From Fibrobacter sp. UWR2 (GTDB lineage Bacteria; Fibrobacterota; Fibrobacteria; Fibrobacterales; Fibrobacteraceae): a stretch of DNA of 64,000 bases. Position 1 is the first letter of the stretch; the number at the start of each line of letters is the position of its first letter. The notes beneath the pieces are model-generated. The model saw only the letters and a list, made by a program, of their open reading frames with translations. It made no database searches and was not told where the DNA came from. A program made the translations under genes and the position numbers. This document shows, piece by piece, positions 2,998-51,400 of this stretch. The DNA lies in the NCBI RefSeq assembly GCF_002210285.1, contig NZ_MWQE01000001.1, forward strand, positions 930,001 through 994,000, read 5' to 3'.

Positions 2998-4410
2998 CTA
3001 GTTGATGCGGCCGACAAGGTTGCCGGAGAGCATCCAGTCCTTCGTGCTGCCGAAGCTGTGGAAGCCGGCAGAGAGGCTGAAGCGGTCGGTAAATGCCTTC
3101 TCGACGTAGACGGCACCAAGGACGTCCTTCACGTGCTTGCCACCGGAAACGAACTCAGGATGTTCGTAGCGGTCGCCGATGTATTCGGCTTCGAGGATGA
3201 TGCGGTCTACGACGGGAGTTTCGATAGCGACACCGCCGGTAATGGGCATGACCATGTCGTCATCGGCACTCAGGTTCATGAGAGCCACTTCACCGAAGAG
3301 GCTGAGGGTGTTGATGATAGGAACGTTCACCTTGAGGGACACGTTGTGCTTGATTTCGGCATCGGAGTCGTAGACAACGTCGAAGATGTTGCTGCGGTAG
3401 CCGAGCTGGATCTTCATGTTGTTGAGCGCTTCGAGGTTGTGGAAGTTGAACACAGCGCGGAGGTCACCCTTGTTGAGGTTAGCAGACTGGCTGATGAAGG
3501 ACACGAACAAGTCCATCGTCTCGGACGGGGTGAAGCCGAACTGCAACTGGTTCTCGGAGGCCTGCGTAGACATGAAACCAGTCAGGTAGCCGTCGATGTA
3601 ACCACCGAAGTAGTCGCCGTTCTTGTCGGTGTTGTCCCAACGACCGACCTTGAAGCTGAACATTTCAGTTTCCTGCAAGGCCCAGGCTTCGTCAAGGCTG
3701 AAGTAGTCGTCTTCGTGGCCGTTCTGACCGTTGCGGAATGCTTCCTTCTTGGCGGACTTGGTTGCGTAACCTTCGTCCTTCAGGTCGCCGGGGTAGAAGG
3801 CAACGGCAATCTTGCCCTTGAAGTCTTCGCCTTCGGCGAGAACTGCGAAGTTGGCTTCGCCGTTCCAGGTTTCAAGGTTGTCTGCATACTTGTCGTCTTC
3901 GCTGGTCCAGAAGACCTTGCCGGCTTCCAATTCGAAGTCAGCATTGATGTCGAATGCGAGCTTCGGGGTCTCGAGCACGGCGTTCTGGATCATTTTTTTC
4001 TTTTTGCGGCGTTTTTTCTTCTTGGCCGGCTTCTGCTCGTCGGCAGCGGCAACCTGTTCTTCGGCTGCAGGTTCGGTAGCGGCAACTTCTGTTGCGGGAG
4101 CGGCTTCCTGGGCTGCTTCGGCAGCGGGTTCAGCAGCGGGGGCTTCCGGAGCGGCTTCGGCTACAGGTGCTGCCTCGGCTGCGGGAGCAGCTTCGGCGGC
4201 AGGCGCAGCTGCTTCTGTCGCGGGAGCTTCGGCTGCAGGTGCGGCCTTTTCAGCAGCGGGGGCTTCGGCTGCAGGTGCGGGAGCGGCCTCGGCAGCGGGT
4301 GCTGCAGCGGGAGCCTTCGCATCGGCAGCGGGAGCTGCGGCGGGTGCTGCTTCCGGAGCGGCAAAAACGGCTGCCGCCAGGATGCAAGAAGCGAGGATCA
4401 TCTTTTTCAT
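2998..4410 (-). CDS. Outer-membrane beta-barrel (porin-like) protein with Ala/Pro/Glu-rich arm
   Basis: The 470-residue protein starts at MKKMILASC. I chose this start over an upstream ATG at 4461 because AGGAG lies about 7 bases before it and a clean signal peptide follows. Residues 18-129 are almost only Ala, Pro and Glu. Residues 130-139 are ten consecutive Lys/Arg. Residues 140-470 show alternating amphipathic strands and a family-like FGFTPSETMDLFVSFISQS stretch, as expected for a porin-type barrel. The basic arm would face the periplasm and could bind peptidoglycan or anionic polymers, which is inference. The gene is divergent from the secreted-protein gene at 4532 and ends at a shared terminator. 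Confidence 0.75.
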   Translation of the reverse strand: MKKMILASCILAAAVFAAPEAAPAAAPAADAKAPAAAPAAEAAPAPAAEAPAAEKAAPAAEAPATEAAAPAAEAAPAAEAAPVAEAAPEAPAAEPAAEAAQEAAPATEVAATEPAAEEQVAAADEQKPAKKKKRRKKKKMIQNAVLETPKLAFDINADFELEAGKVFWTSEDDKYADNLETWNGEANFAVLAEGEDFKGKIAVAFYPGDLKDEGYATKSAKKEAFRNGQNGHEDDYFSLDEAWALQETEMFSFKVGRWDNTDKNGDYFGGYIDGYLTGFMSTQASENQLQFGFTPSETMDLFVSFISQSANLNKGDLRAVFNFHNLEALNNMKIQLGYRSNIFDVVYDSDAEIKHNVSLKVNVPIINTLSLFGEVALMNLSADDDMVMPITGGVAIETPVVDRIILEAEYIGDRYEHPEFVSGGKHVKDVLGAVYVEKAFTDRFSLSAGFHSFGSTKDWMLSGNLVGRIN

Positions 4411-4531
4411 CTCTGAATTCTCCTTTGGTAATTCAATATGCCAAAAGTTTAGTAAAAACAAGGTAACTTCGACGAAAAAACGTCAAAAAATCTGCTAAAA
4501 AAAGTTAGATTTCCCGCCTGAGAGGTTAGTT

Positions 4532-5608
4532 TTGAAAAGAATAGTCTGCTTTATCGTTACTTTGCTCGTTGCAATCACTTTTGCACAGGAAACACTCCCC
4601 GTATACCGTAAAATTGGGAACGCTGTTAGTGAATCAGCTCCCGTTGGTGAACTTTCCAAGTCCGACTGGATAAAGGAACTCCCTATTCCTAAGGACAAAG
4701 TACAGAAGGTCTCCTGGGTCAAGGAGACAGTCGAGGTGACCGACAAGAAGGGCCGCCCCGTGAAAGACAAGAAGGGCCGCGTCAAGACAAAGACCAAGAA
4801 GAAAAAGGTGGTGACCTGGGTCGAGGTGGACCCTAAGGAACCTCCGACATACGTGCCTATCGACTGTAAAATGGGTACAGTATGGGTGCGCCGTGCAGAA
4901 CTGGCTCGCTTCCAGCAGGAGGCGCTGGACTTGAGTGGCGAGTACGCCTCTGCGACGGGAAGCATCTTTTTGAAGAAATCCCCCAACAACCCCAAGCGGT
5001 TCGACGTGATTATCCAGAATGGTCCCGAGGGCAACCGCGCCGAAATCGAGATGGGCAATCTCGAAATCCGGGAATCTAACGGACGCGCGCGCTTTGCTTA
5101 CCAGGAAGAAGGCTGCTCGGTAGATATTGCCGTGACGGGCCGCAAGGTGAAAGTGGCTCAGCGCGGTTGTAACGAGTACAATGCCGGCCAGTACAAGCTT
5201 GAAGGTGACTACGAGAATTACAAGGGCAATACGCGCAAGGTCGTAAACTTCAATATGCCCGAGGTGGAACTCAAGTTCAAGAAGTTCCTCTGGTGCGGTA
5301 GCGGCTTTGACAGCTGCGAAGAGATGAAGGACGAAAACGGTGCCGTGTATATTACCTGGAGCAAGGGTGGCAAGGGATTTATCGAGCGTAAGGCGGGCGA
5401 GACCGTGCATACCTACAGGCCCTTTGAACCGGTGATTCCGCACAAGCGTGAATTCTACAAGGGCGAAAAGCCTATCGCCATCAAGACCAAGCGCACCGAT
5501 ATGGCGGGCGAGTGGATGATCTGGTACTATTACCCGAAGGCCGAGCGCTTCAAGATGGTGCGTGCCGGCATGCGCGAAGACATCGCCTACATGGAAATCT
5601 ACGAGTGA
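4532..5608 (+). CDS. Secreted protein of unknown function
   Basis: Starts with TTG; a GAGAGG Shine-Dalgarno site sits about 6 bases upstream and a TAGATTTC box before it. The 358-residue product opens with a clear signal peptide (KRIVCFIVTLLVAITFA). A basic segment near residues 70-90 (KKGRPVKDKKGRVKTKTKKKK) looks like a linker. The rest is a mixed, strand-rich region with several cysteines (CKMGTVW, GCSVDIA, RGCNEY, WCGSGFDSCEEM), compatible with a periplasmic or surface fold. I do not recognise a family. Its stop overlaps the GTG start of the next gene (GTGA), so the two are translationally coupled. Confidence 0.7.
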   Translation: MKRIVCFIVTLLVAITFAQETLPVYRKIGNAVSESAPVGELSKSDWIKELPIPKDKVQKVSWVKETVEVTDKKGRPVKDKKGRVKTKTKKKKVVTWVEVDPKEPPTYVPIDCKMGTVWVRRAELARFQQEALDLSGEYASATGSIFLKKSPNNPKRFDVIIQNGPEGNRAEIEMGNLEIRESNGRARFAYQEEGCSVDIAVTGRKVKVAQRGCNEYNAGQYKLEGDYENYKGNTRKVVNFNMPEVELKFKKFLWCGSGFDSCEEMKDENGAVYITWSKGGKGFIERKAGETVHTYRPFEPVIPHKREFYKGEKPIAIKTKRTDMAGEWMIWYYYPKAERFKMVRAGMREDIAYMEIYE

Positions 5609-6054
5609 TAAGGGATATCGGACAGAGCCGCGTTCTTTTCTTGGATTCCGGCCCGCTGGTCCGGCTGTTGCAGATGCATCCCGATTTTTACCCGGCAGTG
5701 TCGGGTGTACTTGACATGGTGTACGAGAAGAATATTCAGGTTCTTGTGTCGCCTATTACTTTGTTTGAAATTGGCTGCCACGCATTCGAGAATGGTGAGG
5801 GCGTGCTGGCGCGCCAGTACCGCGAGTTCTTCGAGCATTCGAAGAACGTGAAGGTGTGTCCGGTGAATGCCGAAATCTCGGTGAAGGCGGCCGAACTCTA
5901 CGCCGCTTCGCAGAAGACGAACCACAAGATTACCGAAGCAGAGTCCCTGCGCCTTGCGACCGCGTTTGTGAACGGAGCCGACTGCATCCTTACTGAATGT
6001 GCGAATTTCCGCACCCTTACCGACGCCCTCGTCGTGACTTTGGACGAAGTCTAG
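5605..6054 (+). CDS. PIN-domain protein
   Basis: The GTG at 5605 overlaps the previous stop as GTGA. This start gives 149 residues beginning VIRDIGQSRVLFLDSGPL, which is more natural than longer upstream extensions that run inside the previous gene. The PIN acidic residues are visible: D14 (FLDSGP), E55 (TLFEIG), E113 (AESLRLATA) and D126 (NGADCIL). PIN proteins are Mg-dependent RNases, often toxins of VapBC pairs. No antitoxin-like gene is adjacent, and the coupled partner is a secreted protein, so a classical toxin-antitoxin role is doubtful. Confidence 0.82.
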   Translation: MIRDIGQSRVLFLDSGPLVRLLQMHPDFYPAVSGVLDMVYEKNIQVLVSPITLFEIGCHAFENGEGVLARQYREFFEHSKNVKVCPVNAEISVKAAELYAASQKTNHKITEAESLRLATAFVNGADCILTECANFRTLTDALVVTLDEV

Positions 6055-6075
6055 CAAAAAAAATGCTATTTTATA

Positions 6076-6098: not shown

Positions 6099-7553
6099 AT
6101 GTCAAACTATTGTCCTGTTATCGGTCTTGAAATCCATTGCCAGCTCGCGACGAAGACGAAGATGTTCTGCGGCTGCGAAATCGAAGTGAATACGACCCCG
6201 AACAAGCACGTTTGCCCTGTCTGCCTCGGTATGCCGGGTGCCATGCCCGTGCCGAACAAGAAGGCGGTGGAATACGCGATTCGCCTGGGCCTCGCCCTGA
6301 ACTGCGAAATCGACCTGAACGCGATGTGGACCCGCAAGAACTACTTCTACCCGGACCTGCCGAAGGGCTACCAGATTACCCAGACGGGCGGACTTCCGGT
6401 GTACGACCACCCGATCTGCAAGAACGGCTGGCTCGAAATCGTCAAGGAAGACGGCACCAAGAAGCGCGTGGGCATTACCCGTATCCACATGGAAGAAGAT
6501 GCCGGTAAGCTCATCCACGACATGAGCCCGACCGATTCCCATTTTGACGCGAACCGCTGCGGCACTCCGCTTTGCGAAATCGTGACCGAACCGGATATCC
6601 GTAGCCCCGAAGAAGCCGTGCTCGTCTTGAAGAAAATCAAGCAGACGCTGGAATACACCCGTGTTTCGAACGCCAACATGGAAAACGGCAACATGCGCTG
6701 CGACGGCAACATTTCTCTGCGTGCTAGCGAAGATGCTCCGTTCGGTATCCGCGCCGAAATCAAGAACCTGAACAGCTTTACGAACCTCGAAAAGGCTCTC
6801 TACTGCGAAATGAACCTGCAGGCCTCGACGCTCGACGCCGGCAAGGAAGTGGAACAGTGCACCAAGCGTTACGACCCCAACGCGGACAAGACCATCGTTA
6901 TCCGCAGCAAGGAAGACGCCCACGACTATAAGTACTTCCCGGAACCGGACATGGTCCGCCTCGTGACCGACCCGGCCTTCGTGGAAGAAATCCGCCGCAC
7001 GCTTCCGGAACTGCCGGATGCCCGCCGCAAGCGCTTCATGGACGACTTCGGTGTTTCGGAATACGACGCCATGGTGCTCACGGAAGACCGCGATGTGAGC
7101 GAATGGTACGACACCGCCGCGAAGAACTGCAAGAACGGCAAGGTGCTCGCCAACTGGGTGATTACCGAACTTTTGGCCAAGGTGAAGGAGCTCGAAGGTG
7201 GCCTCAATGCCCTCAAGATCAAGCCCGAAGACCTCTGCAAGCTCGTGAACCTCATCGCCGACAACACCATCAACGGAAAGATTGCAAAGACGGTCTTCGC
7301 CGAGATGTTCGAGACCGGCAAGGATCCCGAAGCCATCGTGAAGGAAAAGGGCCTTGTGCAGGTGACCGACACCGGTGCCATCGAAGAAGTGGTACGTGCC
7401 GTCTGTGCCGAAAACGCCGCCCAGTTCGCCGAATTTAAGGCAGGCAAGGTCGCTCTGAAGGGCTTCCTCGTGGGTATGACCATGCGCAAGTCCGGCGGCA
7501 AGGCCAACCCGGGCCTCGTGAACCAGATCCTCGACAAGCTCGCGAAGGAATAA
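6099..7553 (+). CDS. gatB: Asp/Glu-tRNA(Asn/Gln) amidotransferase subunit B
   Basis: A 484-residue GatB, the usual length. The N-terminal GLEIHCQL motif, the metal-site cysteines around FCGCEIE and HVCPVCLGMPGAMPV, the RKNYFYPDLPKGYQITQ stretch and the C-terminal YqeY-like helical domain (LVNLIADNTINGKIAKTVFAEMFETG) are all present. GatB binds misacylated tRNA and delivers it for transamidation with GatA and GatC. gatA lies 9 kb away on the other strand, and gatC is not in the window. The stop overlaps the next ATG as TAATG, implying coupling to a small membrane protein. Confidence 0.97.
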   Translation: MSNYCPVIGLEIHCQLATKTKMFCGCEIEVNTTPNKHVCPVCLGMPGAMPVPNKKAVEYAIRLGLALNCEIDLNAMWTRKNYFYPDLPKGYQITQTGGLPVYDHPICKNGWLEIVKEDGTKKRVGITRIHMEEDAGKLIHDMSPTDSHFDANRCGTPLCEIVTEPDIRSPEEAVLVLKKIKQTLEYTRVSNANMENGNMRCDGNISLRASEDAPFGIRAEIKNLNSFTNLEKALYCEMNLQASTLDAGKEVEQCTKRYDPNADKTIVIRSKEDAHDYKYFPEPDMVRLVTDPAFVEEIRRTLPELPDARRKRFMDDFGVSEYDAMVLTEDRDVSEWYDTAAKNCKNGKVLANWVITELLAKVKELEGGLNALKIKPEDLCKLVNLIADNTINGKIAKTVFAEMFETGKDPEAIVKEKGLVQVTDTGAIEEVVRAVCAENAAQFAEFKAGKVALKGFLVGMTMRKSGGKANPGLVNQILDKLAKE

Positions 7554-7953: not shown

Positions 7954-7987
7954 CGGCCTCCTTGTTCTTGAGGGGGGGGCTTTTCCC
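7954..7987 (+). terminator. Weak terminator-like hairpin containing a G8 run
   Basis: GCCTC (7957-7961) can pair with GAGG near 7970 and is followed by a run of eight G (7972-7979) and CTTTTCCC. It is a poor intrinsic terminator, but the only one visible after the gatB operon. Confidence 0.35.
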
Positions 7988-46117: not shown

Positions 46118-49100
46118 ATGAGAATTTATAATGAAGTAAAGAAATTTTTGATTTGTATTATAATAAGTGGTCTTTGTTTGGCAACTCAATCTTTTGCCAT
46201 AATCGTTGAGTTTAAGGATGAGCAAATTAATAATTCTTCAATGCTGGCTCTTCGAATGAGAGTTGTTAATGAAAGCAGTGTTACGCATAAGAATGTAAAA
46301 CTGCGCTATATTTTCTCGTATAATGTTGATAAACAAGTTGTTTTGGATTCTGGATATACGGCTGGAGCACATGTGACTCTTCAAATGGTGAATGATTCAC
46401 TTGGATATATAGAAATTTCAATAGATTCGATTAATCAAGGCTATTTCCCAAATAGTTCTGGCTTTTATCAAGGACTTCACTATTCAGATTGGAGCGAAAT
46501 AGGGAAACAGAGTCATCCAAGTTATAAGGGGAAATATAGTTTTGTAGAAAATGAGAATATTCTAGTGTATGAACATGGCTCCTTGATTTATGGAAATGAA
46601 AATATTTTGCCTAAGCCTAGATTAAAATTAAAAATTATTGGTTTTCAGCCAGAAGGAAATGCTTGGCTGGAAATAAAAAATTTTGAAAAGGATAAAATTT
46701 CTCTAGAGAATATAACGATTACAGGAAAAGATTCTGTGGAACATGCGCTGGGATTTGTTTCTCTAGATTCTATGGGTATTCTTCGTATTTGTAAAAATGA
46801 TTCTGCGTGTTATGGTGCTGACAATAAAATTATTTTGCCTGATTTTGCGTGGGGGCGCATTGGTGAGGCTTTGTTGAAAAAAGATTCGATTTTGCTTTCG
46901 TATGTGCCTTGGGGTGATGAGGGCGAGTTTGCAGAAAAGGCTGTTGCTGCCGGGATTTGGAAAAATGTTGAGGATTTTTTTCCGTCATCTATGTGGGTGG
47001 AATTTTATCCAGTAGAGTATAAAAAAAATGTATTCTTTCGTATATGTGAAAATTCGAGCGGAAAACAAACTAATGATTGGTTTAGCTTTACAGATAGAGA
47101 CAAGCCTATTTCGAATCAAAAAATTCCATTACCAATAAAATTATCAATGAATAAACCTCAAAATTACAGATTGACAGAGAATGATTCGGCAAAATTTGAG
47201 TGGTTGCCTGTAGAGCGTGCTTCTAAATATAGAATTGTTATACGAGATTCTGAGAAACAAATCATCTATGAAGAGGAAACGGAAAAAACGTCTGTTAAGG
47301 TGTCTTTGTCGGATGGAAACTATTCTTGGCTTGTATATTGTGGAGAGTATATAGATGGGGATGGAGATATTCTAATAAATGGAAGAGATGATGGATTTGT
47401 TGATGAACAGAATATGTTGTTGCTTTCTAAAAATATAGATTTAAATACATGGGGGGCTTTGGCTATTGATACGATAAAGGGATATAAGGATTCAAAATTT
47501 CTTTTCTTGGGGTATGGTCAAGATGCTCTTGAGTATAAGTGGGATGCCATTCATGCAGATATGCCAGAAGCAAGCAATGCTTATCGATGTTGGCTAGTTG
47601 CTGCACAAATAATGAATCATGTTTATGGAGGCAATGTTACTCAAGATGAAATATTGTTTGCGACTCGTTTTAATAATGATGAACCTCTTGTTTCTCCTTT
47701 TTTCCCCATAGGAGCAGATTCTGTAGATAGATTAAAAGCCCTTAGATTTGCGTTACAGACGGACAGCATAACTCAGTATGGGGGAACCCCGTCATATAGT
47801 ATTGTAAAAAAAGAGATAGATCAAGGTCGGCCTATATATGTTTCGTCTGTTTATTGGTCTGGTAGCGATTCTAAATATAAGGATCATGCGATGGTTATTT
47901 ATGGGTATGTTGGAAAATCAGATAATTATGCTTTTTTATATGCATTCGGTAATAATTATGGCTTTTTAACAAATTCTGTGGGGAAAACGGATTCGATTTC
48001 AGAATATCTTTTGGTAAAAGCAACAAAAGGCTCCGTTGCAATGCATGATTCTAGATTGGATATGGATTCTGATGGTGATGGTATTACGGATTTTGATGAA
48101 ATTGAAAGATTTGGTACAAATCCTTATAGCATTGATTCGGATGGGGATGGAATGGATGATAAAAAGGAAATTTTTGACTACACTATCAAATCCAAATATG
48201 ATAAAAAAATAGATATGACGTTCCCTGATCGTGCACAGACTGTTATGTCTAAAATCGCAAAAAAATCAAATGAAGATGGTGATGAATTTCGGAAAGAATC
48301 TGATAATGATGACAATGGTGATGGAATTAATGATGGCTTAGAAGGAAACGTGAATTTTCAAATAGATAATATGGATGTCCCATTAGATTACACTCTTTTT
48401 GCAAGAAGTCATCTTGTGTTAAATGATGGTGTTAAATGCTTTGATTTAGACGTCAAAAATAATATATTATGTCGAGTTGGAGTTGGGGGGGGGAATAATT
48501 TTTCATATAACTCGCAACAAACATTCTTTTTGATGGGAGTCAATTCGCGTATAGGTAATGCTGATGTTCGACTTCCTATTCTTGAGTCTGGACGGGCATT
48601 CTTGCGTAATTCTGCAATTATTCAAGGCGACTTGAATTTGCATATTCTTACTGCGGGAACGCAACCACATACTGTAGCTGAACTCGGTCAGGACGAACCA
48701 TATTTGGTAAGGCAAAGTAATGTGTTGATTGGTGGAAATATTAATTTAAAATATTACGAATATTATGGAAGTAACGATGACTGGAAAGGAAATTACCAGT
48801 GCAATTTGTCGAAATTTTATGATGTGCCCAATATGGGAAACAAGAGTGTTGATGGAGGTTCTTTCTTATTGACAAACGGTGCTTCGTATAGTTCATTGAA
48901 GATTCAAGGTAATTCAAGGTTGATAATTCCTCCAGGGGAGTTTTACATTGATTCCCTCTTGCAAATAGAATCGGGAACAAGAATAGAATTCTTGAATCCT
49001 GGAGAATCTTCAATTATTCATTTGAATGGCAAATTAATTTGGCGCCCACAAAATGATATTTCCTTGTCGGATGCCGCTTATTGGACAAATGTAGCAAGAG

Positions 49101-49324
49101 GCTTTAAATTGATTCAGCATTCTTCGGAATACATGCTTATTGAAGGTTTTTTTGGTGGAACGATTTATGCTCCGTTATCAGAGTTGATATTGGGACAGGT
49201 TAATAAAAAAATTTATGGAAGATTCCTTGCGAAGGATATTACAGTTCATCAATATGCAGAAGTATTTCGTGTGGATTATGATCCTATTTCGGAACAATCG
49301 TATGCAATAAGGAGTCTAAAATGA
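46118..49324 (+). CDS. Large exported protein with papain-like (C39-type) peptidase region and TSP3 repeats
   Basis: 1068 residues with an N-terminal signal (FLICIIISGLCLATQSFA). Residues ~365-415 look like a fibronectin-type strand module (KFEWLPVERASKYRIVI). Residues ~480-630 read as a papain-fold peptidase with candidate C491 (AYRCWLVAAQIM), H590 (KDHAMVIYGY) and N612 (AFGNNYGF). Residues ~648-685 carry DSDGDGITDFDE and DSDGDGMDDKKE calcium-binding repeats, with a further DNGDGINDGLEG. The remainder is strand-rich. A run of nine G at 48485-48493 encodes a Gly triplet near residue 790. The base composition is far more AT-rich than nearby genes. Substrate unknown. Confidence 0.7.
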   Translation: MRIYNEVKKFLICIIISGLCLATQSFAIIVEFKDEQINNSSMLALRMRVVNESSVTHKNVKLRYIFSYNVDKQVVLDSGYTAGAHVTLQMVNDSLGYIEISIDSINQGYFPNSSGFYQGLHYSDWSEIGKQSHPSYKGKYSFVENENILVYEHGSLIYGNENILPKPRLKLKIIGFQPEGNAWLEIKNFEKDKISLENITITGKDSVEHALGFVSLDSMGILRICKNDSACYGADNKIILPDFAWGRIGEALLKKDSILLSYVPWGDEGEFAEKAVAAGIWKNVEDFFPSSMWVEFYPVEYKKNVFFRICENSSGKQTNDWFSFTDRDKPISNQKIPLPIKLSMNKPQNYRLTENDSAKFEWLPVERASKYRIVIRDSEKQIIYEEETEKTSVKVSLSDGNYSWLVYCGEYIDGDGDILINGRDDGFVDEQNMLLLSKNIDLNTWGALAIDTIKGYKDSKFLFLGYGQDALEYKWDAIHADMPEASNAYRCWLVAAQIMNHVYGGNVTQDEILFATRFNNDEPLVSPFFPIGADSVDRLKALRFALQTDSITQYGGTPSYSIVKKEIDQGRPIYVSSVYWSGSDSKYKDHAMVIYGYVGKSDNYAFLYAFGNNYGFLTNSVGKTDSISEYLLVKATKGSVAMHDSRLDMDSDGDGITDFDEIERFGTNPYSIDSDGDGMDDKKEIFDYTIKSKYDKKIDMTFPDRAQTVMSKIAKKSNEDGDEFRKESDNDDNGDGINDGLEGNVNFQIDNMDVPLDYTLFARSHLVLNDGVKCFDLDVKNNILCRVGVGGGNNFSYNSQQTFFLMGVNSRIGNADVRLPILESGRAFLRNSAIIQGDLNLHILTAGTQPHTVAELGQDEPYLVRQSNVLIGGNINLKYYEYYGSNDDWKGNYQCNLSKFYDVPNMGNKSVDGGSFLLTNGASYSSLKIQGNSRLIIPPGEFYIDSLLQIESGTRIEFLNPGESSIIHLNGKLIWRPQNDISLSDAAYWTNVARGFKLIQHSSEYMLIEGFFGGTIYAPLSELILGQVNKKIYGRFLAKDITVHQYAEVFRVDYDPISEQSYAIRSLK
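48485..48493 (+). repeat. G9 homopolymer inside the peptidase-like gene
   Basis: Nine consecutive G in an otherwise AT-rich coding region, read as GGG GGG GGG. Loss or gain of one G would truncate the protein after about residue 790, removing its C-terminal quarter. Confidence 0.85.
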
Positions 49325-50673
49325 AAAAATGTTTAGCATTGCTTTTGTCTTTATTCTCGTTATGTTTGGCTGAACAAAAGTCAATCTTTGTGCAAGTGCC
49401 TCCAATGCGAAACTGGATTGCCGATGCTCCAGTTATAATTGATAATGAAGATGGAATTGCTCGTCAGATGCAAGATGCTGGTGGTAATGGCTGGTATAGT
49501 TATTCGTGGAGTATAGAGAATATTCCAGATGAATTTTTTATTTATTCTGCCATAGATAAATTATTTCAACATCCCATCGGAGTGCGTAGTTATGATAGCG
49601 ACGGTGAACAGGTCCCAATTATGTTTAAGTCGCTTGTAGAATCCTTTCCTGAAAATGATTCTTTTTGGTATATACTTGATAGTGCATGTTGGAATGATAA
49701 AAATGATGGCGGTCTTTATACCATTGATATGCGTGGGAGAGAAGTGTGCTATGGAAACGATTATCTTGCTGATGGTTCTACGGTTTTGTATGTTCTTGTT
49801 CCTGATTATAAGGAATGGATTGATGAAACTCCTGTTGTAGTTGATTCTGCAAATCACGATTATCGAAAGGTTATGTTTCCAGATAAGGATAGCTATGCAG
49901 GATGGTTTTATTACAAATGGGAAGATGATGAATGGGTTCCTGAGAACCTGCTTATTTATGCCCAAAGTGATAGTTTGCTGGAACGCCCAATAGGCTTGAA
50001 TGGGTTTGCTTATGGAGAGACTGTATTGCAGTCGCTCTCGCTTGGCTGGAGAACGCTGTACTTTTATCCAGATATGAATTATGAGTGTGAACCGCAGTGC
50101 TGTGGTGAACGTGAAATAAAGCGAATCTCTAGATATGATATAAGAAATTATTGTTCGTTACAGTGGCACTGCTTGAAAGACGATTTTAAACCTTCCTATT
50201 ACTTCTATTTTGAACCATCTGCGGTTGTTTTTTCTGTCTATGATAGAAATGATTCGCTTGTTGTGCCGGAACACCAATCGGTTGATTCTACAGAAATTGT
50301 GTATACAGACGGAAAAACAGTGGTTCTTGGAAATAAAATTCCATTGGCTGATGGTGATTATGTTTTAAAGTATTCCTTTTATCGTTATGGAACAGTTGTT
50401 GATGGACGGTTTAAATTTGCTGTGAAGAATGGCGAAAGAGTTGACCAGTCCGGAGTTTATGCAACGAGGAATATATCGCAATCCAATGTTCTGGTGTCTG
50501 GACGGAAGTTGCTTATTTCCGATAAAAATCATGACGAATATGCTGTTTTTAATCCGATGGGAACAATTATTGCTCGCGGGATGACTGAGGGGACTGTTTC
50601 TATACCGCTATTTGCTTCAGGATTGTATTTGGTCAGGATTGGTGGAGAAATTAGACGGATATTTGTGAAATGA
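49321..50673 (+). CDS. Exported repeat protein with sorting-like C-terminal tail
   Basis: 450 residues. It starts inside the previous stop (ATGA) with AAGGAG upstream, so both genes form one operon. A signal peptide (KKCLALLLSLFSLCLA) is followed by two related ~90-residue units: WIADAPVIID ... GWYSYSWSIENIPDEFFIYSAIDKLFQHPIG, and WIDETPVVVD ... GWFYYKWEDDEWVPENLLIYAQSDSLLERPIG. The middle has a Cys cluster (CEPQCCGE). The last ~60 residues (YAVFNPMGTIIARG ... GLYLVRIGGEIRRIFVK) match the tail of the protein at 21540 and resemble type IX sorting domains. Base composition is AT-rich. Function unknown. Confidence 0.7.
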   Translation: MKKCLALLLSLFSLCLAEQKSIFVQVPPMRNWIADAPVIIDNEDGIARQMQDAGGNGWYSYSWSIENIPDEFFIYSAIDKLFQHPIGVRSYDSDGEQVPIMFKSLVESFPENDSFWYILDSACWNDKNDGGLYTIDMRGREVCYGNDYLADGSTVLYVLVPDYKEWIDETPVVVDSANHDYRKVMFPDKDSYAGWFYYKWEDDEWVPENLLIYAQSDSLLERPIGLNGFAYGETVLQSLSLGWRTLYFYPDMNYECEPQCCGEREIKRISRYDIRNYCSLQWHCLKDDFKPSYYFYFEPSAVVFSVYDRNDSLVVPEHQSVDSTEIVYTDGKTVVLGNKIPLADGDYVLKYSFYRYGTVVDGRFKFAVKNGERVDQSGVYATRNISQSNVLVSGRKLLISDKNHDEYAVFNPMGTIIARGMTEGTVSIPLFASGLYLVRIGGEIRRIFVK

Positions 50674-50751: not shown

Positions 50752-51333
50752 ATGGATCGCTTATTTTTTGTTGCCTTGACCTGTGCCACAATGCTTGTTG
50801 TCTGTGGTGATAATAGTAACAACCCTGCTTCGGGCGGGGAAGATTCTCCGTCTACACCGTTTGGGGGCTCGTCCCGCTATGGGACCATGATGGGATGCGC
50901 GTGATGGTCAGACCCATAAGACTATTCAGAATGACGACCAGATCTGGATGGCCGAAAACCTCAGGTACGAAGTTCCTACTGGGAACAGTGCGTTCTATGA
51001 GAATAATCCCAATTCGAAGTACGGGCGTCTATACACTTGGGCTGGTGCCGTAGGCAAAACAAATGATGAATGCGGTTTCGGGCACCTTTGCGAACTTTCT
51101 GGTAGGGTGCAGGGCGCATGCCCCACGGGTTGGCACCTTCCTTCGAGGGAAGAACTCGAGATGCTTGTCGCTGCGGTCGGTGATACTTCCGATGCGGGCA
51201 CTAAGCTCAAGTCCAAGAGTGGGTGGGACTCCGAAGGCAATGGAACCGATGAATTTGGGTTCTCCATGGTCCCGGCGGGCTATATCGGGCTTGACGAAAC
51301 GGATATTCCATCCGCTGCGTTAAAGATGAGTAA
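50752..51333 (+). pseudogene. Decayed Fib_succ_major lipoprotein gene
   Basis: An ATG at 50752 with AGGAA upstream opens a lipoprotein signal (MDRLFFVALTCATMLVVC). The frame stops at TGA near 50902. In the next frame the domain continues (ARDGQTHKTI, WMAENLRYEVP, YGRLYTWAGA, CPTGWHLPSREELEMLV, GFSMVPAGYIG) until about 51310, so one extra base lies near 50893. The expected segment after AGY is missing, and the typical end SIRCVKDE plus TAA appears in a third frame at 51310-51333. One frameshift plus an internal deletion explain all this. Confidence 0.82.
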
Positions 51334-51400
51334 AATTTTTATTACTTGTTTTTGATAAATTATTAAAAAAGAGCGTAAGAAAAGTATTTACTTATATGTG

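Follow-up and report, generated by a model that had tools for sequence, protein, structure and literature searches.

Most documented cases of phase variation come from pathogens and from Bacteroides. The closest described systems to the locus presented in this work are the poly-G and poly-C loci of Neisseria, Campylobacter and Helicobacter. A review puts the mutation rate of SSR tracts at 100–10,000 times the basal one (PMC11868660). A good example is gonococcal NgoAV: in the sections of PMC9577141 that deal with it, HsdS1 has 208 of 410 residues owing to a polyG tract, and the hsdS tract ranges from 6 to 9 G across strains of Neisseria gonorrhoeae. No literature on phase variation in Fibrobacter was evident in the portions of open-access full text covered, and the available sections of PMC12228718 and PMC3711429 describe none in this genus. 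The mechanism considered here is known already; the phylum and the type of gene appear to be new within the open-access literature searched.

The DNA that we analysed, hereafter the window, is a stretch of 64,000 nucleotides (64 kb), positions 930,001–994,000 of its contig. Its longest run of G or C is a G9 tract inside ORF1, a gene for a predicted secreted protein (Table 1). A sequence-only reading had pointed to nine G within a coding region of roughly 35% GC, and this is borne out: the count is exact, and ORF1 has 35% GC, compared with 53% for the window. The gene lies in a low-GC island, with 34–37% GC over 46.0–50.0 kb, 41% up to 51 kb and 53% in the surroundings. The next-longest run in the window, a G8 at 7972–7979, is outside every listed ORF of at least 60 codons.

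We propose, with a probability of about 0.56, that this tract is a poly-G contingency site and that the secreted peptidase may be phase-variable. The tract is a homopolymer of at least eight bases within a reading frame, and the computed effect of a one-unit indel is to switch the product: a stop follows at 48498 or 48533, at most 12 codons on, and approximately 264–275 residues are lost, close to the ~280 claimed by the earlier reading. In the proposed mechanism slipped-strand replication would add or remove one G, the ORF1 product would then be either whole or cut no more than 12 codons past the tract, with the greater part of the C-terminal beta domain missing, and a clonal population would become a mix of ON and OFF cells. 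We infer, as part of this proposal, that tract length would vary in the population, that truncation would inactivate the protein and that selection would keep the tract.

Table 1. Features of the ORF1 locus (positions in the window) and orphan peptidase pieces at related loci (positions in the named locus).
Feature	Position	Strand	Basis or remark
ORF1, 1068 codons, secreted CBM3-like / papain-like peptidase protein	46118..49324	+	
ORF1 signal peptide, residues 1 to ~27	46118..46198	+	By eye; helix 2–23 in AlphaFold model; cleavage site inferred
CBM3-like beta-sandwich, ~residues 28–175	46199..46642	+	Foldseek; position inferred from element order
Papain-like (C39/C10-type) peptidase core, residues 488–614; Cys491, His590, Asn613	47579..47959	+	Weak sub-cut-off Pfam, conservation, Foldseek
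TSP3-type calcium-binding repeats, ~residues 650–745	48065..48352	+	Pfam below cut-off, alignment
C-terminal beta domain, ~residues 760–1060	48395..49297	+	Alignment, AlphaFold model; slippage would lose most of it
G9 tract	48485..48493	+	Codons 790–792 (Gly-Gly-Gly) of ORF1
Shine-Dalgarno AAGGAG of ORF2	49309..49314	+	Six bases before ATG
ORF2, 450-aa partner protein	49321..50673	+	ATGA overlap with ORF1
Orphan C-terminal piece	L146:7175–7366		
Orphan C-terminal pieces	L150:5389–5550, 6491–6850		
Orphan C-terminal piece	L152:4484–4756		
Orphan C-terminal piece	L153:1253–1522		
Orphan C-terminal piece	L290:6835–7026		

What would be lost by such a truncation? The domain order predicted for ORF1, with inferred borders, is signal peptide, CBM3-like, lamin-tail-like, Ig-like, papain-like peptidase, TSP3 repeats and C-terminal beta domain. 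In a Foldseek search of the PDB with the AlphaFold model of the protein (pLDDT 73, pTM 0.42), CBM3 modules are the top matches (best E 5.7e-6; TMt 0.59–0.76 over ranks 1–25), and 26 matches reach E ≤ 0.001, of which 25 go by the name of a CBM3, CBM3-like or cellulose-binding module and the other is a cellulase. By this comparison the beta-sandwich has the fold of a CBM3 module; the Pfam CBM3 profile gave no match in ORF1 at E ≤ 1. Lower in the Foldseek results are a lamin-tail domain (E 0.018) and cathepsin L and staphopain (E 0.04–0.07). Pfam scores stay under their cut-offs for C39_2 (PF13529; 20.7 against 24 bits) and C10 (PF01640; 14.3 against 26 bits), and the TSP3 matches are likewise sub-threshold. 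The catalytic triad is conserved in an alignment of 18 proteins (ORF1 and 17 homologs, 27–40% identity), His590 and Asn613 being invariant and Cys491 present in at least 90%. One peptidase homolog, L043, carries Asn at the position of the catalytic Cys and, as a natural variant, is probably inactive. Slippage would remove nearly all of the beta domain, whose C-terminal part ranks with the most strongly conserved segments of the family, and this counts in favour of a contingency site.

How surprising is a G9 tract in such a gene? The probability of a G run of at least nine in ORF1 is ~0.010 under synonymous shuffling (20,000 trials), ~0.006 under codon shuffling and 0.015, 0.008 and 0.156 under Markov models of orders 1, 2 and 3, the last of which largely learns the tract itself. 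A chance of ~1% is not negligible genome-wide, and this counts against a contingency site. The main rival explanation is chance: the gene would be accessory, low in GC, private to its species and under weak constraint, and the tract no more than three GGG codons in a glycine-rich loop that varies. Such a tract would slip like any G9, but without a role or selective maintenance. We consider this a serious possibility, if one short of an even chance. It gains some support from the codon usage of ORF1, in which GGG makes up 15 of the 86 glycine codons. The genus background, however, argues against it, as runs of seven or more are strongly avoided elsewhere in coding sequence. Our control set, made up of 20 segments, each 20 kb long, of 18 further Fibrobacter genomes (277 ORFs, 344 kb coding), contains no G or C run of at least seven where 9.5 were expected (7.32 of length 7, 1.73 of length 8 and 0.48 of length 9 or more, with none of each observed), a result in favour of a contingency site. 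In the coding sequence of the window 4.0 such runs were expected, and the single one observed is the ORF1 tract. This tract is an exception to the genus background, as a contingency locus should be. The source genome (3.28 Mb in 20 contigs) holds eight tracts of at least nine G, and only the one in ORF1 is clearly within a long gene.

Homopolymers are error-prone in some sequencing methods, and the length of the run could in principle be an error of assembly or consensus. We regard this as extremely improbable, because a length of nine leaves the 1068-codon frame open and aligning over its full length with homologs.

The homologs lend chance some support. No G run is found at the aligned site in any of 29 homologs or 31 named loci (0/60, in sets that overlap: L030 and L285, and L031 and L296, for example, are each the same gene twice), which counts against a contingency site. 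The 31 named loci, obtained by an alignment-based scan of genome contigs, are all from Fibrobacter or Fibrobacteraceae records, on which ground we assign the source to Fibrobacter, and are 24–42% identical to ORF1; they do not include the copy of the source species, and a contig scan with the single protein gave no relative. Residues at the tract site vary between homologs (ASDEN, VGGDGN, SESG), as expected of a variable loop, and the homolog with VGGDGN has a Gly-rich loop there but no tract. Over these loci the G9 is a private trait of the source species, not kept at the same site in orthologs. Retention at the same site is not a strict criterion for contingency loci. The source copy of ORF1 is in frame, a further point against a contingency site.

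The same loop could be read in another way, as a fixed Gly-Gly-Gly turn needed by the beta domain, with a DNA run that is incidental and stable. In the AlphaFold model the glycines do lie in a loop of this C-terminal domain and border a low-confidence segment (792–800). That said, glycines are not conserved at this site, and Gly3 can be encoded without three identical GGG codons, and we think a functional turn quite unlikely. The sequence-only reading had also named conserved glycine codons as a sign against phase variation; this check points neither way, since the loop is not conserved and the tract occurs in this species only.

A second member of the family favours a contingency site. In the homolog from the cultured strain Fibrobacter intestinalis ATCC 43854 (L290, NZ_FUWU01000009.1) the match to query positions 28–82 is in frame 1 and ends at base 3165, and the match to positions 83–1056 is in frame 2, from base 3167. 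The junction is a G8 tract (3166–3173), which sits at a different position in the gene from the G9 of ORF1, and a 973-codon frame (3146–6067) is open across and past it. It is unlikely that the frame of a 3-kb gene would break right at an 8-base tract by accident. As sequenced, L290 is a relative in the alternative frame at a tract, which speaks against a chance origin of the tract in ORF1.

Frame changes inside the main match are found in two of 61 loci (window included), L290 and L056. The break in L056 is without a G tract of eight or more and L030/L285 has one nonsense codon; both count against a contingency site, and they illustrate that the family decays in ordinary ways too. Out-of-frame copies could also in part be assembly errors, which counts on the same side. 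Decay of this kind, with nonsense and frameshifted copies and orphan C-terminal pieces, is in keeping with a chance tract. In L036, L038 and L293 a stop falls just where the match begins and nowhere else, and L306 has additional C-terminal pieces downstream.

Other arrangements were seen in the family. In L031 (reverse strand) and L296 (2890–2901) a G12 lies ~90–100 bases upstream of the start of the peptidase homolog, and is a possible promoter-level switch. The last 54–126 residues of the peptidase also occur as orphans (43–61% identical), directly 5′ of small secreted partner genes (Table 1); L290 has a full peptidase and partner, then a C-terminal piece and a second partner. These pieces look like cassettes, and their conserved 3′ end could serve as a recombination site.

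The earlier reading also claimed that slippage would uncouple the next gene. ORF2 does overlap ORF1 by ATGA, but its own Shine-Dalgarno sequence means that its translation need not depend on ORF1, so that translational uncoupling is doubtful; a polar effect of ORF1 truncation on ORF2 is possible. A T9SS type A tail (TIGR04183) is weak in ORF2, at 12.7 bits against a cut-off of 23, and the AlphaFold model of the protein is uninformative (pLDDT 51). Overlaps of the ATGA type recur in several homologs (L036-L038, L049, L053 and L290) with a different partner gene. A fixed two-gene system of peptidase and ORF2 was rejected, as the best ORF2 homologs do not neighbour full-length peptidases and the 29 homolog loci yielded no match to ORF2 (0/29). 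Further 3′, a FISUMP-type lipoprotein gene (50753–51355) has its signal-peptide start and the motif MAENLRYE in different frames, and seems to be broken.

Long G tracts are widespread in the genus, with at least one G9 in 79 of 80 Fibrobacter genomes. We collected 178 distinct tracts of nine or more G (103 of length 9, 44 of 10, 21 of 11, four of 12, three of 13, two of 14 and one of 17), a sample that is blind to gene content and comprises all tracts of some genomes and the first one or two of others. Tracts were called intragenic when at least 40 codons lay on each side and at least 180 in total, either in the frame as sequenced or after a shift of one. This rule was passed by 27/178, from which we dropped ten by judgement (L075, L168, L173, L178, L180, the first tract of L198, L215, L225, L236 and L255) for overlapping or antisense frames or because the tract probably precedes the true start (L173 is possibly a real gene), leaving 17. 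Local GC is at most 0.40 at eight of these 17, compared with 9.5% of random coding positions (binomial ~1e-4), which counts in favour of contingency sites. Four (L109, L210, L230 and L251) are out of frame as sequenced.

Which genes host these tracts? Besides ORF1 with its CBM3-like and papain-like peptidase domains, Pfam identifies four Acyl_transf_3 genes (L095, L109, L198, L203) and a GDPD gene (L163). There is an HsdS gene with Methylase_S domains (L210), a TonB_C (TonB-like) gene (L230), a subtilase-like gene below the cut-off (L251) and two surface-type proteins with no Pfam match in the parts scanned (L083, L190). Four more (L164, L171, L227, L262) we take, from a motif, to be FISUMP-type. 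By eye, L234 is phage-type and L233, with a G9, is a housekeeping Mrp-type ATPase, which counts in favour of chance. The intragenic tracts gather in typical phase-variable classes despite their low GC, which argues for contingency sites and against chance.

The acyltransferases are a convenient example. Acyl_transf_3 genes number 3–13 per genome in 80/80 genomes, by rough arithmetic ~0.2–0.3% of coding DNA, and carry 4/17 of the intragenic tracts (G9–G11, one gene out of frame). These four proteins share 16–26% identity with one another, and their tracts fall at alignment columns 187, 261, 267 and 312 of 410, so that most if not all of the tracts arose independently. The four genes are candidates for phase-variable surface acylation.

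Tract lengths differ between species. The 25+25 bases that flank the L187 G11 and the L211 G9 are identical, a point in favour of contingency sites, and like flanks with unlike lengths are also found for L194 G10 and L243 G9, L096 G10 and L170 G9, and L071 G9 and L123 G11; all of these pairs are between species and may lie outside genes, which counts against. DNA searches across the genus with three other tract-bearing genes, aimed at their close orthologs, returned source copies only, plus three short weak L203 matches, and also count against. The phase variation suggested by the earlier reading is thus strengthened by L290, out of frame at its G8, and by genus tracts in phase-variable classes, but no length variation was observed at the ORF1 locus in a data set of one genome per species.

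A general role of G tracts in Shine-Dalgarno placement was rejected: a G9 lies 4–12 bases 5′ of an ATG, at or beside the Shine-Dalgarno position, in only 4/178 cases (L016, L072, L118 and L219; a fifth automatic match, L198, is intragenic), with none on the opposite strand. The L016 tract, from the source genome, is ahead of a glycan-type gene in a region of 37% GC. A multi-copy element, TTTTACAAT-G9/10-TATGGACTTTGGCAGGGGC, occurs in L024, L117, L206, L208 (two copies), L214 and L217; the L024 copy, also from the source genome, is ahead of a FISUMP-type gene.

These results raise a wider idea, for and against which we see the odds as even, that of a genus-wide Fibrobacter phasome. Species-private poly-G contingency loci would turn on and off the acyltransferases of the surface, CBM3-like peptidases and further proteins located there, and an HsdS (a phasevarion), with ORF1 as one member. 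By varying surface and methylome, cellulose-adherent gut cells would hedge against phages, hosts or substrates. If main fibre degraders of herbivore guts do switch the acylation of surface glycans, the specificity of DNA methylation and proteases associated with cellulose, then clonal cultures are mixed, which matters for the phenotyping of strains, for resistance to phages and for adhesion to cellulose.

Finally, we return to the known systems. ORF1 shares the conserved Cys-His-Asn of the Pfam C39_2 and C10 papain-like peptidases, with weak similarity in profile and, tentatively, in fold. It differs from them in scoring below the Pfam cut-offs, in having its core between a CBM3-like domain and TSP3 repeats, and in belonging to a family seen here only in Fibrobacter or Fibrobacteraceae records. 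Like the poly-G and poly-C loci of Neisseria, Campylobacter and Helicobacter, the candidate loci of Fibrobacter have G8–G12 inside the frames of surface genes, where an indel truncates the product, and some related genes are out of frame. Unlike them, the ORF1 tract is private to one species of the Fibrobacterota, no variation in its length was observed, and the gene encodes a CBM3-like peptidase and not a known phase-variable antigen. The nearest parallel in the genus, not a gene of the window, is L210 (G043:C14), where a G9 divides a type I restriction HsdS into parts of 201 and 209 codons in different frames, both of which have a Methylase_S domain. It shares the hsdS1/hsdS2 design of NgoAV, and by this analogy is a candidate phasevarion in Fibrobacter.
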